Made by a program: the position numbers and the translations under genes. This document shows positions 8,428 to 26,147 of a stretch of 26,147 bases of DNA, piece by piece; the first letter of the stretch is position 1; each line of letters opens with the position of its first letter. The DNA comes from a virus: the IMG/VR virus record IMGVR_UViG_3300036884_000016, positions 1 to 26,147 of that record; one strand, 5' to 3'. Below the pieces are notes generated by a model, which saw nothing but the letters and a program-made list of their open reading frames with translations, had not been told where the DNA came from and made no database searches.

Positions 8428-9063
8428 TTACCAGTACCGATACTGAGGTGTCTTAGCAACATAGTCGTTGGCATCGTTAACAAGCTCGAATAAATTTTTA
8501 AGATATTCTTCGTATTCAGGATTGTCTTTAGAAGATTGCAACACTTGAACGCATGAATGAGCCAACATTACAAAAGATGCAATTGTAGCGTGAAGTGAAA
8601 CGATGGCTTTTAAATCCATGTGGTAAATTTTATCTTCGTAAACTTCGGGATAAAGATGGTGCAAAGTTACAAGCAGAAATTTTTCAGGTATTCTAATAAA
8701 CTTGTCGTCTATCTGAAGACCTATATCGCGGTTGTCGTAAACGCAGTATTGAACAGGACTTAATTGTTCACCTAGCGGCAAGTCAGAAGGTTTTCTTGAT
8801 TCAGGATTTACTATTTTTCTAATATCGCGTAGTTTAACCCGCTCTTTAAAATTTGTTTTACTGCTCATAAGAAGTTCGTATTTTTCAAGCAGTTGCTTGT
8901 CAGAACATTTGTTAAGTAATCTATCATTCCATTGCCAAGTAGCATCTTTGCCGTTGAAGTCTCCGAACGGTTTGAGCAACAGGTGTTGGGTTACTTTATA
9001 AGAACGCGGGTCTATTTCGCAAATTAGAATTATGAGTTCTTGCCTGTTTATGTTAATTTTCAT
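8428..9063 (-). CDS. Unknown protein, last gene of the inverted cassette
   Basis: 211 residues from the ATG at 9063, which starts inside the end of the upstream gene (11-base overlap). A TTG start at 9084 would add seven residues but is less likely. The protein is soluble and mixed in charge, with a basic region (FKERVKLRDIRKIVNPESRK) and a C-terminal helical half (FLLVTLHHLYPEV, then SLHATIASFVMLAHSCVQVL, then an acidic helix and a YRYW end). I see no catalytic motif and do not recognise the family. Its stop faces the strong terminator, so it closes the operon. Confidence 0.65.
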   Translation of the reverse strand: MKININRQELIILICEIDPRSYKVTQHLLLKPFGDFNGKDATWQWNDRLLNKCSDKQLLEKYELLMSSKTNFKERVKLRDIRKIVNPESRKPSDLPLGEQLSPVQYCVYDNRDIGLQIDDKFIRIPEKFLLVTLHHLYPEVYEDKIYHMDLKAIVSLHATIASFVMLAHSCVQVLQSSKDNPEYEEYLKNLFELVNDANDYVAKTPQYRYW

Positions 9064-9403
9064 CGGTAAGCCTATTGAGTTCAAAAGTAAGTATTGTTTT
9101 ATGCTCCAAACGTTGTTCTTTAAAATTTGACAATCGGTCTTGTAACTGACGTTGAATCACTTCACTTATTGTGGTTTTATTACTCCCAATACAACCTGTA
9201 ATTGTGACTGTATTGTGTGTTTTAGGGATGTTTTCAAAGAAGTTAATTCCGTCAGAGTTGTGACGTTTTTGTAAAAATTTGGCATGTAAACGTTGCTCGT
9301 AGTCAGCAATTTCAACAGGGGTTAGATGCTGTTTTAAAATGTTAATTTCGTTAAGTAAGCACTTAATCTGTTGATCTTTTGATGCAATTTTGGTAGGTTT
9401 CAT
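9053..9403 (-). CDS. Small protein with degenerate P-loop
   Basis: 116 residues from the ATG at 9403, which has AAGGAG seven bases upstream; this start is far better than any codon further 5' in the same frame. Residues 1-50 look like a coiled coil (QQIKCLLNEINILKQHL). Near residue 70 a hydrophobic strand leads into TVTITGCIGSNKTT. This resembles the Walker A of small kinases ('GPIGSGKTT') with Asn in place of the Gly before Lys. No Walker B or lid follows and the protein ends after about 40 more residues, so it is probably a nucleotide-binding remnant or a minimal binding protein, not a full kinase. The start overlaps the upstream stop (ATGA). Confidence 0.65.
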   Translation of the reverse strand: MKPTKIASKDQQIKCLLNEINILKQHLTPVEIADYEQRLHAKFLQKRHNSDGINFFENIPKTHNTVTITGCIGSNKTTISEVIQRQLQDRLSNFKEQRLEHKTILTFELNRLTDEN

Positions 9404-9564
9404 TTTGAACTCCTTGTTGTTGTAAAGATGTAGATCATACCCATTGTGAATTGAAACGCACACAATAAAGCAACAGCCAACGTATGTATTTGTAGTAAGT
9501 ACATAACGGCAACGGAAGGTAGATTGAAAATGACAATCAGTAGCCAATGTTTGAGGAATTTCAT
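9400..9564 (-). CDS. 54-residue membrane protein
   Basis: The gene reads MKFLKHWLLIVIFNLPSVAV at the start and continues with two hydrophobic stretches (about residues 7-24 and 29-48), ending in TTTRSSK. It is most likely a two-pass small membrane protein. GGAG lies six bases before the ATG. The ATG overlaps the stop of the upstream gene (ATGA) and the TGA overlaps the next ATG in the same way, so it is coupled on both sides. This tight coupling makes it a real gene despite its size. No family is recognised; toxin, holin-like or exclusion roles are only possibilities. Confidence 0.7.
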   Translation of the reverse strand: MKFLKHWLLIVIFNLPSVAVMYLLQIHTLAVALLCAFQFTMGMIYIFTTTRSSK

Positions 9565-9770
9565 TTTAGTCTCCAAAGAGGTTCGAGTCTTTTTAAAGCG
9601 TGTTCTTTATGTTCAACTATAAATCTGAAGCAACGAGCGTAACCTTGTTTGTCGCCAAAATAAAGACCTAATATGTGACCGACCATAAAGCCGATTAGAA
9701 TTGACAATATTACGGTGAGATTTCGCAATTCAACGCGTTCTAAAAATTGAGTAATTAGTTCATTTAACAT
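9561..9770 (-). CDS. Small single-pass membrane protein
   Basis: 69 residues from the ATG at 9770, which overlaps the end of the upstream gene by 11 bases. A GTG at 9809 would give 82 residues and is possible. One strong transmembrane segment (TVILSILIGFMVGHILGLYFG) is followed by a basic C-terminus (GDKQGYARCFRFIVEHKEH), so the positive-inside rule places the C-terminus in the cytoplasm. The stop TGA overlaps the start of the 54-residue membrane protein, so the two membrane proteins are probably made together. Function unknown. Confidence 0.65.
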   Translation of the reverse strand: MLNELITQFLERVELRNLTVILSILIGFMVGHILGLYFGDKQGYARCFRFIVEHKEHALKRLEPLWRLK

Positions 9771-10380
9771 ACATTGTACCCAAACCAGGCTTGCAGGAAG
9801 CTTTTTCACTCTCAGACAAATCTTCCAGTCTAACGTATTGCTGAGGCGATTGTTTTAAAGGTTTACCCCAAGCTAAAATTAACTTTTCGTGGACACGACC
9901 TTGATTCAAGGTGCTTGAAAATACTCTACCGTTATAAGTTACAGGCACAAGTTCAATATCAACACGTTCGTCACTGCCGTCTACTAACAGTAAAATAGTT
10001 TCACCGATAGGCATTGTTGTAAGGTCTTCGATTTTAAAATTAGCGAATGTTTGATACGGGTTTGTATATCCTTTACAAAGAAGTTTGAATTGTGCGTTTC
10101 GTAAATTTTCAGCACAAGTGAAAGCAATTTCGTCAGCTAAAGTTTCAACAGGTACTTTGAAGTAACTAGCGAGTTCTTCTTTGCTCCATTTAAACGTGTT
10201 CACGTTTAAATGACAATTGAATAAACGAGCTTCGCAATTGATGTTGAATACGTTGCTAAAATTTTGAGCGTTTGCGTCAGCGAGGTCTTTGTTAGCAAAC
10301 AACAAAACTTCACCGTTTCTTGGGTCTGTGTACCAAGTTCCTTCGCTTTCGTTGTTCGTAACCCATATTGCGTAGAACAT
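9760..10380 (-). CDS. Unknown 206-residue cassette protein
   Basis: 206 residues with an excellent AAAGGAG seven bases before the ATG. The N-terminus (MFYAIWVTNNESEGTWYTDP then GEVLLFANKDLADANA) looks like a small alpha/beta module of a type common in phage accessory proteins. The middle has KWSKEELASYFKVPVETLAD, which could be a helix-turn-helix-like segment, and the C-terminus is mixed. Four cysteines are scattered (INCEARLFNC, FTCAEN, LLCKG). No catalytic motif or membrane segment is seen. I do not recognise the family. Confidence 0.65.
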   Translation of the reverse strand: MFYAIWVTNNESEGTWYTDPRNGEVLLFANKDLADANAQNFSNVFNINCEARLFNCHLNVNTFKWSKEELASYFKVPVETLADEIAFTCAENLRNAQFKLLCKGYTNPYQTFANFKIEDLTTMPIGETILLLVDGSDERVDIELVPVTYNGRVFSSTLNQGRVHEKLILAWGKPLKQSPQQYVRLEDLSESEKASCKPGLGTMYVK

Positions 10381-10414
10381 TTTGTAGCTCCTTTAATTTA
10401 GAATTGAAAGTTTG

Positions 10415-10663
10415 TTACACGATTTTACCGTTTATTGAAACAAGCGTACTATTTTCTTCACATTGATAACAAGATTCGGGTAGCCACGACAACACCGGTT
10501 TCCAATCGGTAGCTAATATGTATTCAGTGGGTGAAATGTAGTCTTTAACTGTAAAGTGATGTTTGCCGTCTAAGTCTATTCTGTGTTCAGCACCGGTTGA
10601 TTCGCTTCTTATTACTCTTGTTTGATTTAGGTTTAGCAACTTTATGGCTTGAATGTAGTTCAT
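10415..10663 (-). CDS. Possible DUF2829/Tad2-like protein, first gene of the inverted cassette
   Basis: 82 residues with GGAGG six bases before the ATG. The outline resembles short DUF2829 proteins, the family that includes the anti-Thoeris protein Tad2: an N-terminal helix (NYIQAIKLLNLN) followed by a TRVIR strand (the family has 'V.R'), then DLDGKHHF, and YILATDWKPV near the end (the family has 'DILATDWEVV'). The Trp usual after 'V.R' is missing and a 25-residue extension with CYQC follows. Tad2 binds the gcADPR signal made by Thoeris. The call rests on short motifs only. Being promoter-proximal in an accessory cassette fits an anti-defence role, but this is inference. Confidence 0.5.
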   Translation of the reverse strand: MNYIQAIKLLNLNQTRVIRSESTGAEHRIDLDGKHHFTVKDYISPTEYILATDWKPVLSWLPESCYQCEENSTLVSINGKIV

Positions 10664-21717: not shown

Positions 21718-23082
21718 ATGTCAACTAAAATAATTACCGTAGCAGCAACACCGCCTAGCGAATCTTCTGGTGCTGATTATAACAAAGGCGCTCCGTTGAA
21801 TGCAACTGAGTTCGATCAGAACTTGATTAATCTTCGCGCTGCTGTTGATCGTAGGGCTTTGGCATCGTCGTCAAATGCTTTTACTTGCGGTGCGCTGACG
21901 GCGGCAAGTGCAGAAATAAAAGGTGCATGTAAGATTTCAGCAATTGCTGGAGCAGATTTCAGAGGTATCGAATATGGGATTACGGATGTTTCTCAAGTTT
22001 ATGCTTCTGCTAAATTTAGGTCAGACACAGGTGAATTAAAACATGAAGCAGGGTTTACCTCTTGGGGAGGAATTCAAACCTTCTACACAAACGGACTAGA
22101 GCGTATGCGCGTACATAGTACAGGCAGCGTTCTTGTTGGCCTTTCCACAGCAGTTACAGGAGCGAAACTTGAGGTAGCGGGGAGTATAAGTGCAACATCC
22201 TCAATATCCTTAACTGGTTCAGGTATTGCCACTGGACTATCGAATGATGGGGCTGGCTTATACGTCTACGTTCCTACAGGCAAACAGTTCAATATGTTGG
22301 TGAATGCTTCGACCGTAGCATCAGTTTCCAGCACAGGGCTTGCTGTGACGGGGGGTGTGACGGCGAGTGGGGTTGTTGATTGCTCTTACGGTGGATATAC
22401 CGGGACAAATGCTCTGCATATCGGTGCAAATATCGGTGAATCATTTGGTAGAACAGACGCAGTTGCTAAATTCGGTGCTGTGTCGGCACCGCATTATAGC
22501 ACGGCGCAAGAGCCAACAATTATCCTGAGCGCATATAACACAGCAACAGAAAACAGAATTGAGTTAGGTGGGGGTTTGACAGCCTACAATGCCATTACAT
22601 CGTTTAATATTTATTGTGCAGCAAATAATACAACTGTCACAGGGGCAGAAGTTGCATCTTTTTCCTCAACAGGCTTGTCGGTCACTGGTGGGATAAGTGC
22701 AACAGGAGATATAGGTAACGCACCTACTACATGGGCTCCAACTCTAGGTGGTACGTCATCACTTAGTGTTGGCACAGCCACATACAAAAAAATAGGTAAG
22801 TTGGTATCTTTTGAGACTACGTTCACAGTCACATCACTAGGTACAGGTAGTGCTTACGTAATGACAGGTATACCATTTACACCAGTTAACACAACTGCCG
22901 TTAGTGTAGGGTACTTTTCTGGTATTGCGTCTAACGCGGTGAGCCTGTACGCGTACATAGACACTGCTGGTAATATAGTCGTTGGAGCATTATCAGCCGC
23001 AGGGGTAAGTGTTGGTGTTGGGGGCAACATCTATGCCAATGGAACAACAATGCGTATAGCTGGTACGTACTACACAGCTTAA
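21718..23082 (+). CDS. Side tail fibre protein
   Basis: 454 residues with GGAGG in an ideal place. The N-terminus (PLNATEFDQNLINLRAAVDR) is typical of phage fibre trunks that attach to the tail. The shaft has repeated beta elements (STGLAVTGGVTASG at about 206 and STGLSVTGGISATG at about 318) and short 'ERMRVHSTGSVLVG' type motifs as in trimeric fibres. From residue about 330 the protein changes to a tip domain (APTLGGTSSLSVGTATYKKI to the end, GTYYTA) of the kind seen at the C-terminus of many phage fibres. A 78-bp block that codes for the last shaft element (22618-22695) is repeated exactly 670 bases downstream, where a different fibre end follows. It should determine host range with the gpJ-like protein. 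Confidence 0.82.
   Translation: MSTKIITVAATPPSESSGADYNKGAPLNATEFDQNLINLRAAVDRRALASSSNAFTCGALTAASAEIKGACKISAIAGADFRGIEYGITDVSQVYASAKFRSDTGELKHEAGFTSWGGIQTFYTNGLERMRVHSTGSVLVGLSTAVTGAKLEVAGSISATSSISLTGSGIATGLSNDGAGLYVYVPTGKQFNMLVNASTVASVSSTGLAVTGGVTASGVVDCSYGGYTGTNALHIGANIGESFGRTDAVAKFGAVSAPHYSTAQEPTIILSAYNTATENRIELGGGLTAYNAITSFNIYCAANNTTVTGAEVASFSSTGLSVTGGISATGDIGNAPTTWAPTLGGTSSLSVGTATYKKIGKLVSFETTFTVTSLGTGSAYVMTGIPFTPVNTTAVSVGYFSGIASNAVSLYAYIDTAGNIVVGALSAAGVSVGVGGNIYANGTTMRIAGTYYTA
22618..22695 (+). repeat. 78-bp exact direct repeat, copy 1 (inside the fibre gene)
   Basis: This block is identical to 23288-23365, base for base. It codes for the end of the fibre shaft (TTVTGAEVASFSSTGLSVTG). 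Immediately after it the two copies differ in DNA but still both encode ISATG before diverging completely. Confidence 0.95.
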
Positions 23083-23093
23083 GTAAACCTACC

Positions 23094-23146
23094 TGCCACA
23101 GATAGGCTTATAACCGAACACCAGTACCTTGCTGGCTTCTGTGGCA
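23094..23146 (+). other. Long intergenic inverted repeat after the fibre gene
   Basis: TGCCACAGA (23094-23102) pairs perfectly with TCTGTGGCA (23138-23146). An inner stem CCAG (23121-23124)/CTGG (23132-23135) sits inside. No U-tract follows, so it is not a standard terminator. It lies 12 bases after the fibre stop and could end or protect the fibre mRNA. Confidence 0.6.
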
Positions 23147-23180: not shown

Positions 23181-23402
23181 ATGAAAGAATTTACACTCAC
23201 AGTAACAGAACAGGAACTCCAAGTAGTATCAGCAGGTTTGGCAGAGTTGCCGTTTAAGCACGTTGGCACGCTGATACAGAAGTTGCAGCAGCAAATAATA
23301 CAACTGTCACAGGGGCAGAAGTTGCATCTTTTTCCTCAACAGGCTTGTCGGTCACTGGTGGGATATCTGCTACCGGTGCGATTTCATGTGCAAACACAGT
23401 AG
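23181..23402 (+). CDS. Small phage protein with C-terminus overwritten by fibre DNA
   Basis: 73 residues, with AAAGGAG ten bases before the ATG. Residues 1-37 (MKEFTLTVTEQELQVVSAGL and on to KLQQQ) match a small helical protein found beside phage fibre and lysis genes. From base 23288 onward the DNA is the copied fibre segment read in another frame, giving an unrelated tail (IIQLSQGQKLHLFPQQ and on). So this is a real gene that lost its own stop by fusion at a short GCAGCAAATA homology. It may still make a working protein if the first 37 residues are enough. Function unknown. Confidence 0.6.
   Translation: MKEFTLTVTEQELQVVSAGLAELPFKHVGTLIQKLQQQIIQLSQGQKLHLFPQQACRSLVGYLLPVRFHVQTQ
23288..23365 (+). 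repeat. 78-bp exact direct repeat, copy 2
   Basis: Identical to 22618-22695. Here it forms the start of a spare fibre 3' end and the chimeric tail of the small gene. Confidence 0.95.
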
Positions 23403-23488
23403 CCGCAGGTATCGCAGTAGCCTCAACTCATAAAGTTACGATGGTTATAAATGGAACAACTTATTATCTGTTGGCGTCCAACGTGTAG
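23288..23488 (+). pseudogene. Orphan alternative C-terminus of the tail fibre
   Basis: In the fibre reading frame this segment encodes the shared shaft end, then ISATGAISCANTVAAG and a conserved fibre ending (THKVTMVINGTTYYLLASNV) up to TAG 23486-23488. It has no start codon or ribosome binding site, so it is not expressed alone. The final motif is a common phage fibre C-terminus, so this is a genuine fibre end that has been cut off from its gene. Recombination between the 78-bp repeats would delete 670 bases and join the present shaft to this ending in frame. Confidence 0.85.
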
Positions 23489-23495
23489 TAACAAC

Positions 23496-23561
23496 TTAAA
23501 AGAACTTCAATTGCTTTTCGGTTTTGAGATACGCTACTTCTCGCAAGATTTGTAGCGTATC
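23496..23561 (-). pseudogene. Relic 3' end of a second family B DNA polymerase gene
   Basis: Read on the minus strand, the codons from 23561 to the stop at 23498-23496 encode 21 residues ending in KTEKQLKFF, then TAA. The functional polymerase next door ends in the same KTEKQLKFF, then TGA. Upstream residues are also alike (IL.E...Y in both), while many codons use different third bases. So this is the end of a diverged homologue, cut off by a stop codon at 23564-23562, nine bases from the live gene. Confidence 0.8.
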
Positions 23562-23564
23562 TTA
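23525..23564 (-). terminator. Long hairpin in the convergent junction
   Basis: AGATACGCTAC (23527-23537) pairs perfectly with GTAGCGTATCT (23552-23562); two further pairs extend it. No strong U-tract is present in either direction. It lies between convergent genes and may stop both transcripts, though it overlaps the polymerase relic. Confidence 0.5.
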
Positions 23565-23570
23565 TTCACC

Positions 23571-24653
23571 TCAGAAAAACTTCAACTGTTTTTCAGTTTT
23601 AGTGTATCCTATCTCTACCAAAATTTTGTTTGCTTCTTCAATGTACTTTTCAAAATTAACGTCTGTTGGAAAACTACGTGGCAAGTCCTGGCATGGTCGT
23701 GCACCATCGGTGTTCGGCACCTTATTGCCGTTGACTACGCGATTAATACAACCTTGAATACCTTTAGCATAGTAGTGTCTGACGGTTTTTCCTAGGTATA
23801 CACCGTCCTTCTCGCCGCCGCCTGTAACTTTAATTACTGAGACAAACTTGGTAATATCTTTACAGTTACGTATTGTTTCTTCAATTGGGATTTGTTTTGT
23901 TAGTAGGGCTTGCACTGCTTCAGAGCAAATCAACGCTTCTGGGTTCTTTGACAGTCTGCTATTTAAAGCTGAACCTTTTTCTGAATAACAACCTTTTACT
24001 TTGCATGTATTATCTTCTTTAACTATTATGAAATTATTTACGTCCCTACTATAAACTGATTTGTAACATTCTTCTTCAGTTTCGTAGTTCGTTATTCGTT
24101 CCCATTCTTTTACAATATTAGCGTATGTTTCGCGCAATTCAGTATTGCACTTTACAATTATTCCGTCTGTATTTCCAGAAATAACAGGTATTCCGGCAAG
24201 TTCGATCAATTCAATCAACATTAACAAACAAAGTTGGCCTGAAATTGTAACTTGTAACAACAAGTCAGGAGAATACAACGCTGAATACTTACTCCCAAGT
24301 TTGCCGAACGATCCATTGATCGACACCTTAATTGAATCGCAAATTACATTTGCTTCTTTTAGTTCAATTTCAAGTTGTGCTATTTGCTTTTCAGTTTCAA
24401 TTGTTTTTTCCAACTTTTTTAAATCTTTCAAGTTCTGCTTAATATTTTTAGCTTCTGCTTTAGCTCGCAATCGCTTTTCTACTAAACTTTGATAAACGTT
24501 CAAAAAGTTGTTTGTTAAATGTTTTGGGAACAACCTTTGATTTAATATTGTTCTTGGATAGTAGCTTGCAACGTCAGGTGATATTAACAAAACTTTGTCA
24601 GTCGCAACATGGCTTATGCTTTCTTCTGTAGAATGCAGACCTCCTAGCCCCAT
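23571..24653 (-). CDS. Family B DNA polymerase, polymerase domain
   Basis: 360 residues. All three polymerase motifs are visible: motif A DVASYYP (27-33), motif B KVSINGSFGKLG (109-120) and motif C GNTDGI (160-165), with GNTDG in place of the usual DTDS; the catalytic Asp is D163. A charged, coiled-coil-like stretch lies between A and B (about 60-105). GLGGLHS at the start normally continues directly from an exonuclease domain in phage PolB. That domain is in the upstream gene in another frame, and the two overlap by ten bases. No good Shine-Dalgarno precedes this ATG, so it is probably made by frameshifting, coupling, or appears split because of an error. Confidence 0.85.
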   Translation of the reverse strand: MGLGGLHSTEESISHVATDKVLLISPDVASYYPRTILNQRLFPKHLTNNFLNVYQSLVEKRLRAKAEAKNIKQNLKDLKKLEKTIETEKQIAQLEIELKEANVICDSIKVSINGSFGKLGSKYSALYSPDLLLQVTISGQLCLLMLIELIELAGIPVISGNTDGIIVKCNTELRETYANIVKEWERITNYETEEECYKSVYSRDVNNFIIVKEDNTCKVKGCYSEKGSALNSRLSKNPEALICSEAVQALLTKQIPIEETIRNCKDITKFVSVIKVTGGGEKDGVYLGKTVRHYYAKGIQGCINRVVNGNKVPNTDGARPCQDLPRSFPTDVNFEKYIEEANKILVEIGYTKTEKQLKFF

Positions 24654-25570
24654 TTTGTACGTTGAAAAACTTGTCCGTTTTCTGCAATAACGAAGTCGGC
24701 GTTTCGTACAATTTCAAGCATCTTCTGAAGCAAAGGAGTTTTGTATTGAACAAAATCCGGTACTTGATATTTATAAACAGTTCCAGGATTAATTGTAGGA
24801 CGCTTTGCCCAATAGCCGTTCAGCTTTCTTATTTCCCCACAAAGAACCGCCTCTGCAACTTGGGCGTCAGATAAAGACCTGTAATCAGCTCCGTACTGTT
24901 TTGACATTTCAGCTCGAAGTTCCAATTGTGGGGATAACTCACGTAGCAACAAAAGTGTGTCTTCCAAATCCGTGAAGCAGTATTTTCTTACTATAGTTTG
25001 TTCTTCTGTAGAAAGTCTACTGTCTGGACTAAACGGTAGTTCCTGAAGCCTCGGAGCATGTAAACGCGCAGCATAAGCTTTTAGCGATGCTTGCAACGGA
25101 CTTACTTCTATGACATCAATAGAGTTGATCTTTCCGGCTTTGAATTTGAATGCCAATTCCACATCTCTAAGCCTCCAATTTTCTTTAATTATGAAGTCTG
25201 ACACATTTTTTAAAGTTGGATTATCAACATTTTGCATCGCAAGCCATATCATAGGCAAGTCATAACTATTTGAGTTGAAGCCGCACACAGTAAAGTTGTG
25301 AAGCACAAACAGCATCTTTGCAATGTCAAGTTTTTGATTTTCAGTTCTTTCAAAATAAACTATTTTATTAGTGAAGTAGCACTTGAACGCTATTAACCAG
25401 TATGTAGGGTAACACTCCGTATCGAAGACTAAAATGCCCCCTTTCGCGGCAATTAACTCGTCGTCTGTAAATAACTCAAACGGAACTTCTTCACGTTCTA
25501 AAGCAACTGTTGAAGTCTTAGTGCGTTGTTTGCGTTTGGCCGGTTCGTTTGGTAGGTCGAAGAATTTCAC
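24644..25570 (-). CDS. Family B DNA polymerase, 3'-5' exonuclease domain
   Basis: 308 residues from a GTG at 25570 that overlaps the upstream stop (GTGA); an ATG at 25609 would overlap that gene by 43 bases and is less likely. The exonuclease motifs are intact: Exo I FDTE (Asp50, Glu52), Exo II GFNSNSYDLPM (97-107) and Exo III YCFTD (Tyr197-Asp201). The end (ENGQVFQRTKWG) runs straight into the start of the polymerase half if the frame is shifted by -1 at ACAAAATGG. Together the halves give about 668 residues, normal for this phage PolB type. Confidence 0.85.
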   Translation of the reverse strand: MKFFDLPNEPAKRKQRTKTSTVALEREEVPFELFTDDELIAAKGGILVFDTECYPTYWLIAFKCYFTNKIVYFERTENQKLDIAKMLFVLHNFTVCGFNSNSYDLPMIWLAMQNVDNPTLKNVSDFIIKENWRLRDVELAFKFKAGKINSIDVIEVSPLQASLKAYAARLHAPRLQELPFSPDSRLSTEEQTIVRKYCFTDLEDTLLLLRELSPQLELRAEMSKQYGADYRSLSDAQVAEAVLCGEIRKLNGYWAKRPTINPGTVYKYQVPDFVQYKTPLLQKMLEIVRNADFVIAENGQVFQRTKWG

Positions 25571-26147
25571 GCAGAAACACCCATTAGGCAACCACGAATT
25601 TTCCCACATTTTGAGAAGAAAAACGCAGCAGAACTACTATAAAAATCAACTAGCTCAACACAATGCTCGATACGTTCCAAACGCTTGATATTAAACGCGG
25701 GGCCATGCCTAACCCCTGGAACTTCGCAAACAGCGCCGTCGCATTTATCTCTGTGCGACTGTAACGCGCCGTCAACAAAGTACACAGTCTTTTGCAAGTC
25801 CTTACCTTCACTGAAAGGTTTGATGTTGCGTAATGCGTCGTAAAATCCTACGGGTAAAGGTTCAGGTTTGGATGGTTTGTTGAGTATAACGTCAACATTC
25901 GGCCAAGGCTCGGCGTAAGTCTGAGTTTTGATCCAAGAATCATCCTCGTAATAAAAGGTGCAACTGTTTTCTGAATATCCGAACTGTTTTAGTTTTTTGT
26001 CTGTATTCAGGATTACTGTTACTAATGCCTTGGGAAGTATTAGTGTGGGTAATGAAATACCATGCCAGAACTCCAACATAACGGCTGTGTCAGTTGCGAC
26101 CATTGAGTTCTCACGCAGTAATATTGAGCATTCAACAATTCTGCGAT
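25567..26147 (-). CDS. Beta sliding clamp-like protein (partial, 5' end outside window)
   Basis: The frame is open to the window edge, so the gene starts beyond it; 192 residues are visible. SMVATDTAVMLEFWHG matches the 'ATDGHRL' signature of beta-clamp domain 1, and ISLPTLILPKALV is like the following helix start. TFYYEDDSWIKTQTY, a YFVDGALQSHRD segment and KIRGCLMGV near the end match clamp-like phage proteins. It would hold the polymerase on DNA. It ends in GTGA with the exonuclease gene, so clamp and polymerase are one operon. The clamp call is moderate; the gene itself is certain. Confidence 0.65.
   Translation of the reverse strand, partial: RRIVECSILLRENSMVATDTAVMLEFWHGISLPTLILPKALVTVILNTDKKLKQFGYSENSCTFYYEDDSWIKTQTYAEPWPNVDVILNKPSKPEPLPVGFYDALRNIKPFSEGKDLQKTVYFVDGALQSHRDKCDGAVCEVPGVRHGPAFNIKRLERIEHCVELVDFYSSSAAFFFSKCGKIRGCLMGVSA

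Follow-up and report, generated by a model that had tools for sequence, protein, structure and literature searches.

The fibre/polymerase interval

The window analysed here (the whole stretch of DNA, a 26,147-base IMG/VR record that is probably a fragment) carries an island of 274 bases between its fibre gene and its DNA-polymerase (PolB) gene. Within this island a second fibre ending and a second PolB ending, referred to below as spare, face each other next to the live genes. The features of the region are the following:

21718-23082, plus strand: fibre gene, an ORF of 454 aa with a tip ending in ...NGTTMRIAGTYYTA; its first 51 residues are 90 % identical to those of the L012 fibre
22618-22695, plus strand: repeat copy 1, exact over 78 bp, within the fibre shaft
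23181-23402, plus strand: small ORF with its ATG at 23181 and a Shine-Dalgarno-like AAAGGAG upstream
23288-23365, plus strand: repeat copy 2, whose left edge GCAGCAAAT adjoins the small ORF
23366-23488, plus strand: spare fibre ending SATGAISCANTVAAGIAVASTHKVTMVINGTTYYLLASNV and stop, in frame with the repeat; relatives are encoded at 37 IMG/VR loci
23489-23495: gap of 7 bp between the two spare stop codons
23496-23561, minus strand: spare PolB ending (DTLQ)ILREVAYLKTEKQLKFF and stop; homology clear over 17 codons and plausible over 21
23527-23562: perfect 11-bp inverted repeat with a 14-nt loop, AGATACGCTAC...GTAGCGTATCT, within the spare PolB coding end
23571-24653, minus strand: C-terminal ORF of the live PolB, ending in ILVEIGYTKTEKQLKFF and stop; matches phrog_1252, DNA polymerase (E 2.6e-115)
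24644-25609, minus strand: N-terminal ORF of PolB in a different frame, from the ORF list

The second fibre stop at 23488, the second polymerase stop at 23498 and the seven bases between them are where the original prediction had placed them. On the left, the island is flanked by the small ORF, which runs into the repeat, rather than by the fibre gene itself, and the spacer between these two genes holds a stem-loop of its own (23094-23146). The authentic part of the small ORF is MKEFTLTVTEQELQVVSAGLAELPFKHVGTLIQKLQQQ (about 23181-23294), after which the repeat is read through out of frame. This ORF gave no match in PHROGs, just a sub-threshold match to DnaG in Pfam and none in cultured phages. 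It was probably truncated by the join, which we infer because no complete homologue was found. The tail-tip protein, used as a search bait, retrieved no relatives. Elsewhere in the tail module, which is otherwise plus-strand, a block of minus-strand ORFs occupies window positions 8428-10663.

The repeat and the spare fibre ending

Comparison of the window with itself yields an exact direct repeat of 78 bp (22618-22695 and 23288-23365), with a longer version of 89 bp at 96 %, and thus confirms the earlier observation that the spare fibre end is preceded by the same 78 bp as in the live gene. Both copies stand in the fibre reading phase. Their identity breaks off abruptly, in the manner of a crossover joining homologous fibres: past the 78 bp, SATG is encoded in both copies by different codons (AGT GCA ACA GGA versus TCT GCT ACC GGT), so that this is the meeting point of two homologous fibres.

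The spare fibre frame closes with a TAG that ends at 23488. Its ending is a recurrent fibre terminus, and its presence at the 37 loci implies that tips of this type have spread among phages; among cultured phages no match was found. The live fibre has its shaft in common with the spare copy and differs from it in the tip and then in the small gene. The join of the fibre tip and small gene to the island coincides with the left end of the repeat and has at most a few bases of common sequence. The fibre contains two copies of the shaft motif SSTGL[AS]VTGG[VI]xA[TS]G, at 22327-22371 and 22663-22707 (residues 204 and 316), and the change of tip falls at the second copy; a similar motif is present in L051.

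The spare polymerase ending

The spare PolB frame ends with a minus-strand TAA at 23496-23498. As had been noticed earlier, it shares KTEKQLKFF with the live end while differing from it at synonymous sites: 5 of the 27 coding bases differ, all of them at third codon positions, and when the stop is included the differences at first, second and third positions number 0, 1 and 5. Whether the likeness extends past these nine residues was the critical point, and it does. Aligned over 17 residues, the spare ILREVAYLKTEKQLKFF and the live ILVEIGYTKTEKQLKFF reach a BLOSUM62 score of 65, while among 13,610 stop-ended 17-mers drawn from this window and from loci unrelated to it, used as a chance background, the next best reaches 18; in the same comparison the eight residues upstream of KTEKQLKFF alone rank in the top 0.03 %. 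When 18 codons are compared, the stop among them, the differences at the three codon positions are 3, 4 and 10, mostly at third positions. The PolB of the relative L051 ends in ILYDIGYLKTEKQLKFF and stop, and the pattern [IM]L-x-[DE]-x-x is seen at PolB ends throughout the family, where IL is preceded by E-A/T-x-x; the DTLQ of the spare end fits this pattern.

The junction in relatives

In PaMx42, FtMidnight, KL1, LPPA15, QH3 and KP1, as well as in RcMotherGoose, Lucius, Eidolon, Kharn and Langgrundblatt1, the tail gene and PolB converge with a 4-nt overlap of their stop codons, and this arrangement is also found at more than 10 IMG/VR loci. Because the genes of the relatives meet in this way, the spare pair with its 7-bp gap looks like an ordinary boundary of this PolB phage group. 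The window thus resembles the tail/PolB boundary of Septimatrevirus and Kilunavirus (PaMx42, KL1) in gene order and orientation; there, however, the stops normally overlap by 4 nt, whereas the live fibre and PolB genes of the window are about 490 bp apart, with the small ORF and the scar between them.

Two close relatives lack the island. In L012 the fibre gene is followed by 89 bp with a hairpin and then the polymerase, and in L051 by an 85-aa ORF on the plus strand, a 157-aa ORF on the minus strand and the polymerase. The two extra ORFs of L051, one per strand, fill the interval (L051:8352-9130), and the minus-strand one comes after the polymerase as if in the same operon. Since it is absent from both L012 and L051, the island is not a separately conserved gene, which would have spoken against its reading as a relic. 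The content of the interval thus varies among relatives (nothing, two genes, a scar) while the order of the flanks is constant. The recombination hinge that had been proposed is thus a fair term in the sense of this variable content, rather than of a preferred site of recombination. A genome in which a fibre with the spare-type end faces a polymerase ending in KTEKQLKFF, the arrangement expected of an intact ancestor, was sought in IMG/VR and none was found, although absence from this collection does not speak decisively against such a parent.

The live polymerase

The live PolB consists of two overlapping ORFs in different frames, with the overlap (24644-24653) beside a homopolymer run. About a dozen residues that are present in L051, L012 and L060 are absent near 24,650, and relatives carry intact copies of PolB. 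The split may be real damage, by frameshift or decay, or an assembly fault, and the integrity of the gene is uncertain. The closest cultured phages, at about 50 % identity, are Septimatrevirus, Kilunavirus and related siphoviruses. In the first full alignment block the live PolB matches L051 at 39 of 40 positions and L060 at 29 of 40, while in a late block it matches L060 at 37 of 40 and L051 at 19 of 34. On these alignments the gene is a mosaic with an L051-like start and an L060-like last third.

Origin of the island

The arrangement is likely to be a recombination scar that holds the remnant of a former convergent fibre/PolB junction, kept while new sequence was added to its left and right. 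The island contains truncated pieces with homology to the genes beside it (the 78-bp repeat with the spare fibre end, and the spare PolB end), the boundary occurs without the remnant in L012, L051 and cultured relatives, and a flanking gene is of mosaic ancestry (PolB blocks close to L051 early and to L060 late). As to the polarity of the change, comparison with the two close relatives is compatible with an island kept as well as with one inserted. Of the idea that an ancestral junction was retained as homologues replaced the gene on each side, the remnant junction therefore stands on the tight convergence that is the norm, the PolB homology and the two relatives without the island. Gene replacement fares less well: the fibre was not replaced as a whole, as the shaft is common and only the tip and small gene differ, and PolB is a mosaic that was not cleanly exchanged.

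In the older arrangement, a fibre gene with the tip ...THKVTMVINGTTYYLLASNV would have run head-on into a polymerase gene with the end ...VAYLKTEKQLKFF. On the left, the tip of a sister phage and the small gene behind it would have joined in, so that the shaft continues by way of the 78-bp repeat to the new tip. Behind it, the small gene's end would have met the older phage's repeat at its left edge, where GCAGCAAAT suits both, and this fusion would have duplicated the 78 bp; a single non-homologous join between two sister phages would yield both the gene order and the duplication. On the right, a PolB body and 3' end would have come from another lineage, leaving 17-21 terminal codons of the earlier polymerase past the new stop. 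This spare end may have been kept partly for its hairpin, which is placed where relatives have a terminator or hairpin. The repeat, the homology of both spare ends, the usual tight convergence in relatives and the mosaic polymerase are shown, whereas the sequence of steps, the donors, the part played by microhomology, the truncation of the small gene and why the scar was retained are what we infer.

Considerably less probable is the converse, in which the island was inserted, a piece of roughly 270 bp that spans the fibre/PolB junction of a related phage having come to separate the small gene from the resident polymerase. Two illegitimate joins, the same as above, account for this course of events, and the flanks of the island, a broken small ORF and a live stop, agree with it. 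The inserted shaft must however equal the resident one over 78 bp, which calls for a very close relative as donor, and the mosaic polymerase remains a separate event.

An artefact of assembly or amplification, in which two co-occurring strains were joined through the shared 78-bp segment, appears improbable. The 78 bp of the repeat would correspond to k+1 if the assembler had used k=77, the record is a fragment and its polymerase has a frame break. Yet the join of the small ORF to the repeat needs real sequence across GTTGCAGCAGCAAATAATAC, where the overlap amounts to only about nine bases, and that of the spare to the live PolB needs another real read; mixing of strains via the repeat gives neither.

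We think it just as improbable that the island stores an alternative tip. The two exact copies form a direct repeat, share one reading phase and lie 670 bp apart, so that homologous recombination between them would remove 670 bp and give the fibre the spare tip in frame, as a reserve receptor-binding end, with the fused frame open to the spare stop. Such a deletion would be one-way, neither a recombinase site nor a second state was seen, and a recent accident would look alike. Two other systems for varying a fibre were rejected: a fibre switched by an invertase of the Min/Cin type, as the 78-bp copies are direct repeats without inverted crossover sites, and a diversity-generating retroelement, as the copies show no difference within the 78 bp and beyond them differ at every kind of base rather than at template adenines.

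Finally, that the island is merely a regulatory intergenic region (a terminator) with coincidentally protein-like ends is hardly credible: a stable hairpin is present and the L012 hairpin has the same size and distance from the PolB stop, but on either strand the likeness of the proteins greatly exceeds what chance would give, and the spacing of the stops matches the usual junction.

A hairpin within the last PolB codons

The inverted repeat in the spare PolB coding end is a hairpin that begins 8 nt beyond the stop of the live PolB and about 39 nt beyond that of the spare fibre, with folding energies of -23.0 and -20.5 kcal/mol (z -6.0 on the plus strand and -5.1 on the minus strand), and none of 1000 synonymous shuffles folds as well (z -4.07). 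A scan of the island for terminator sites found no U-tract after the stem on either strand. By the usual definition it is thus not an intrinsic (Rho-independent) terminator, although a stable stem-loop is present. A hairpin of equal geometry (11-bp stem, 14-nt loop, 8 nt past the PolB stop) and unrelated sequence occurs at L012:7078-7113. A 9-bp stem in L051 (CAGAAAAAC...GTTTTTCTG, L051:9151-9175) is made up of the very codons for KTEKQLKFF.

Across loci, the last 66 nt of PolB had a mean z against synonymous shuffles of -1.26 where a convergent gene ends within 8 nt of the PolB end (tight loci, n=17), compared with -0.42 for convergent loci with a gap (n=17), +0.28 for co-directional loci (n=47) and +0.02 for others (n=17). 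The p-values for tight loci versus the rest (5.6e-4) and for the end versus internal windows of the same genes (0.002) are, like all those for hairpins and terminators given here, too small because the loci are related by descent. The signal is not fully confined to the end, as the internal offset 99 is also at -1.0. Eight cultured tight phages gave -1.20 at the PolB end versus -0.32 internally (p = 0.04), a weak replication in a set that includes the near-duplicates Lucius/Kharn and Langgrundblatt1/Pfeifenkraut and in which the end of RcMotherGoose matches L091. Antisense terminator-like sites were found at 10 of 34 convergent loci versus 6 of 64 others (nominal p = 0.013, with a home-made score and groupings picked after the data had been seen). 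In the gapped cultured phages phiAxp-1, AH03 and Halfdan a textbook terminator lies just past the PolB stop.

Hairpins recur around the EAxx[IM]L codons of PolB 3' ends (L090, L091, L124, L084, L081, L005, L057, L055), and several are followed on the antisense strand by a T-rich stretch that is the complement of the WYIxE codons. A hairpin conserved base by base was rejected, as the stem registers, compared by eye, vary between phages; what is seen is recurrence at one place and not covariation. Template switching was considered as the origin of the island hairpin, since one arm starts near the point where similarity to the live PolB fades, and was dropped because DTLQ fits the family pattern and similar coding hairpins occur in relatives.

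The modest enrichment of coding hairpins where the end of PolB overlaps a convergently oriented tail gene suggests a terminator role. A bolder proposal, which we regard as doubtful, is that in this phage group the last PolB codons are under synonymous selection for a hairpin that ends the tail transcript, and that the scar persists since the discarded end still supplies this hairpin to the new gene pair. A search of the literature on convergent phage genes with terminators embedded in coding sequence found nothing direct.

Comparison with known systems

Mosaic junctions in tailed phages arise when relatives recombine, by homologous or relaxed recombination (De Paepe et al. 2014, PMC3945230). 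The present locus resembles them in the abrupt change of ancestry within genes and in the exchange of small gene fragments and tail-fibre genes across phages. What sets it apart is that the two genes meeting at a single convergent boundary have each left a 3' end behind, the two ends lying back to back next to the copies in use today.

Alternative tips on a common shaft and direct repeats are also features of the duplication and exchange of phage fibre tips, which is known from adhesin duplications in T4-like phages and from invertase-switched fibres; here, by contrast, there are no inverted crossover sites and the second tip lies outside the gene. Bidirectional terminators occur between convergent bacterial genes, and in phage Loki terminators are annotated. 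The island hairpin likewise lies where two transcripts meet but, unlike them, in former coding sequence and without a U-tract.

Implications

The scar of phage mosaicism at this tail/replication boundary is genuine and well preserved, and of a kind already known; the new point is the suggestive one of a possible terminator hairpin written into the last PolB codons. The scar is a readable record of a phage joining tail and replication parts at a normally spacer-free boundary, in which the old ends have kept their register. Should the hairpin reading be correct, the last PolB codons may also end the tail transcript and the boundary would be hard to exchange cleanly, as a replacement polymerase would have to bring a hairpin or keep the old one.
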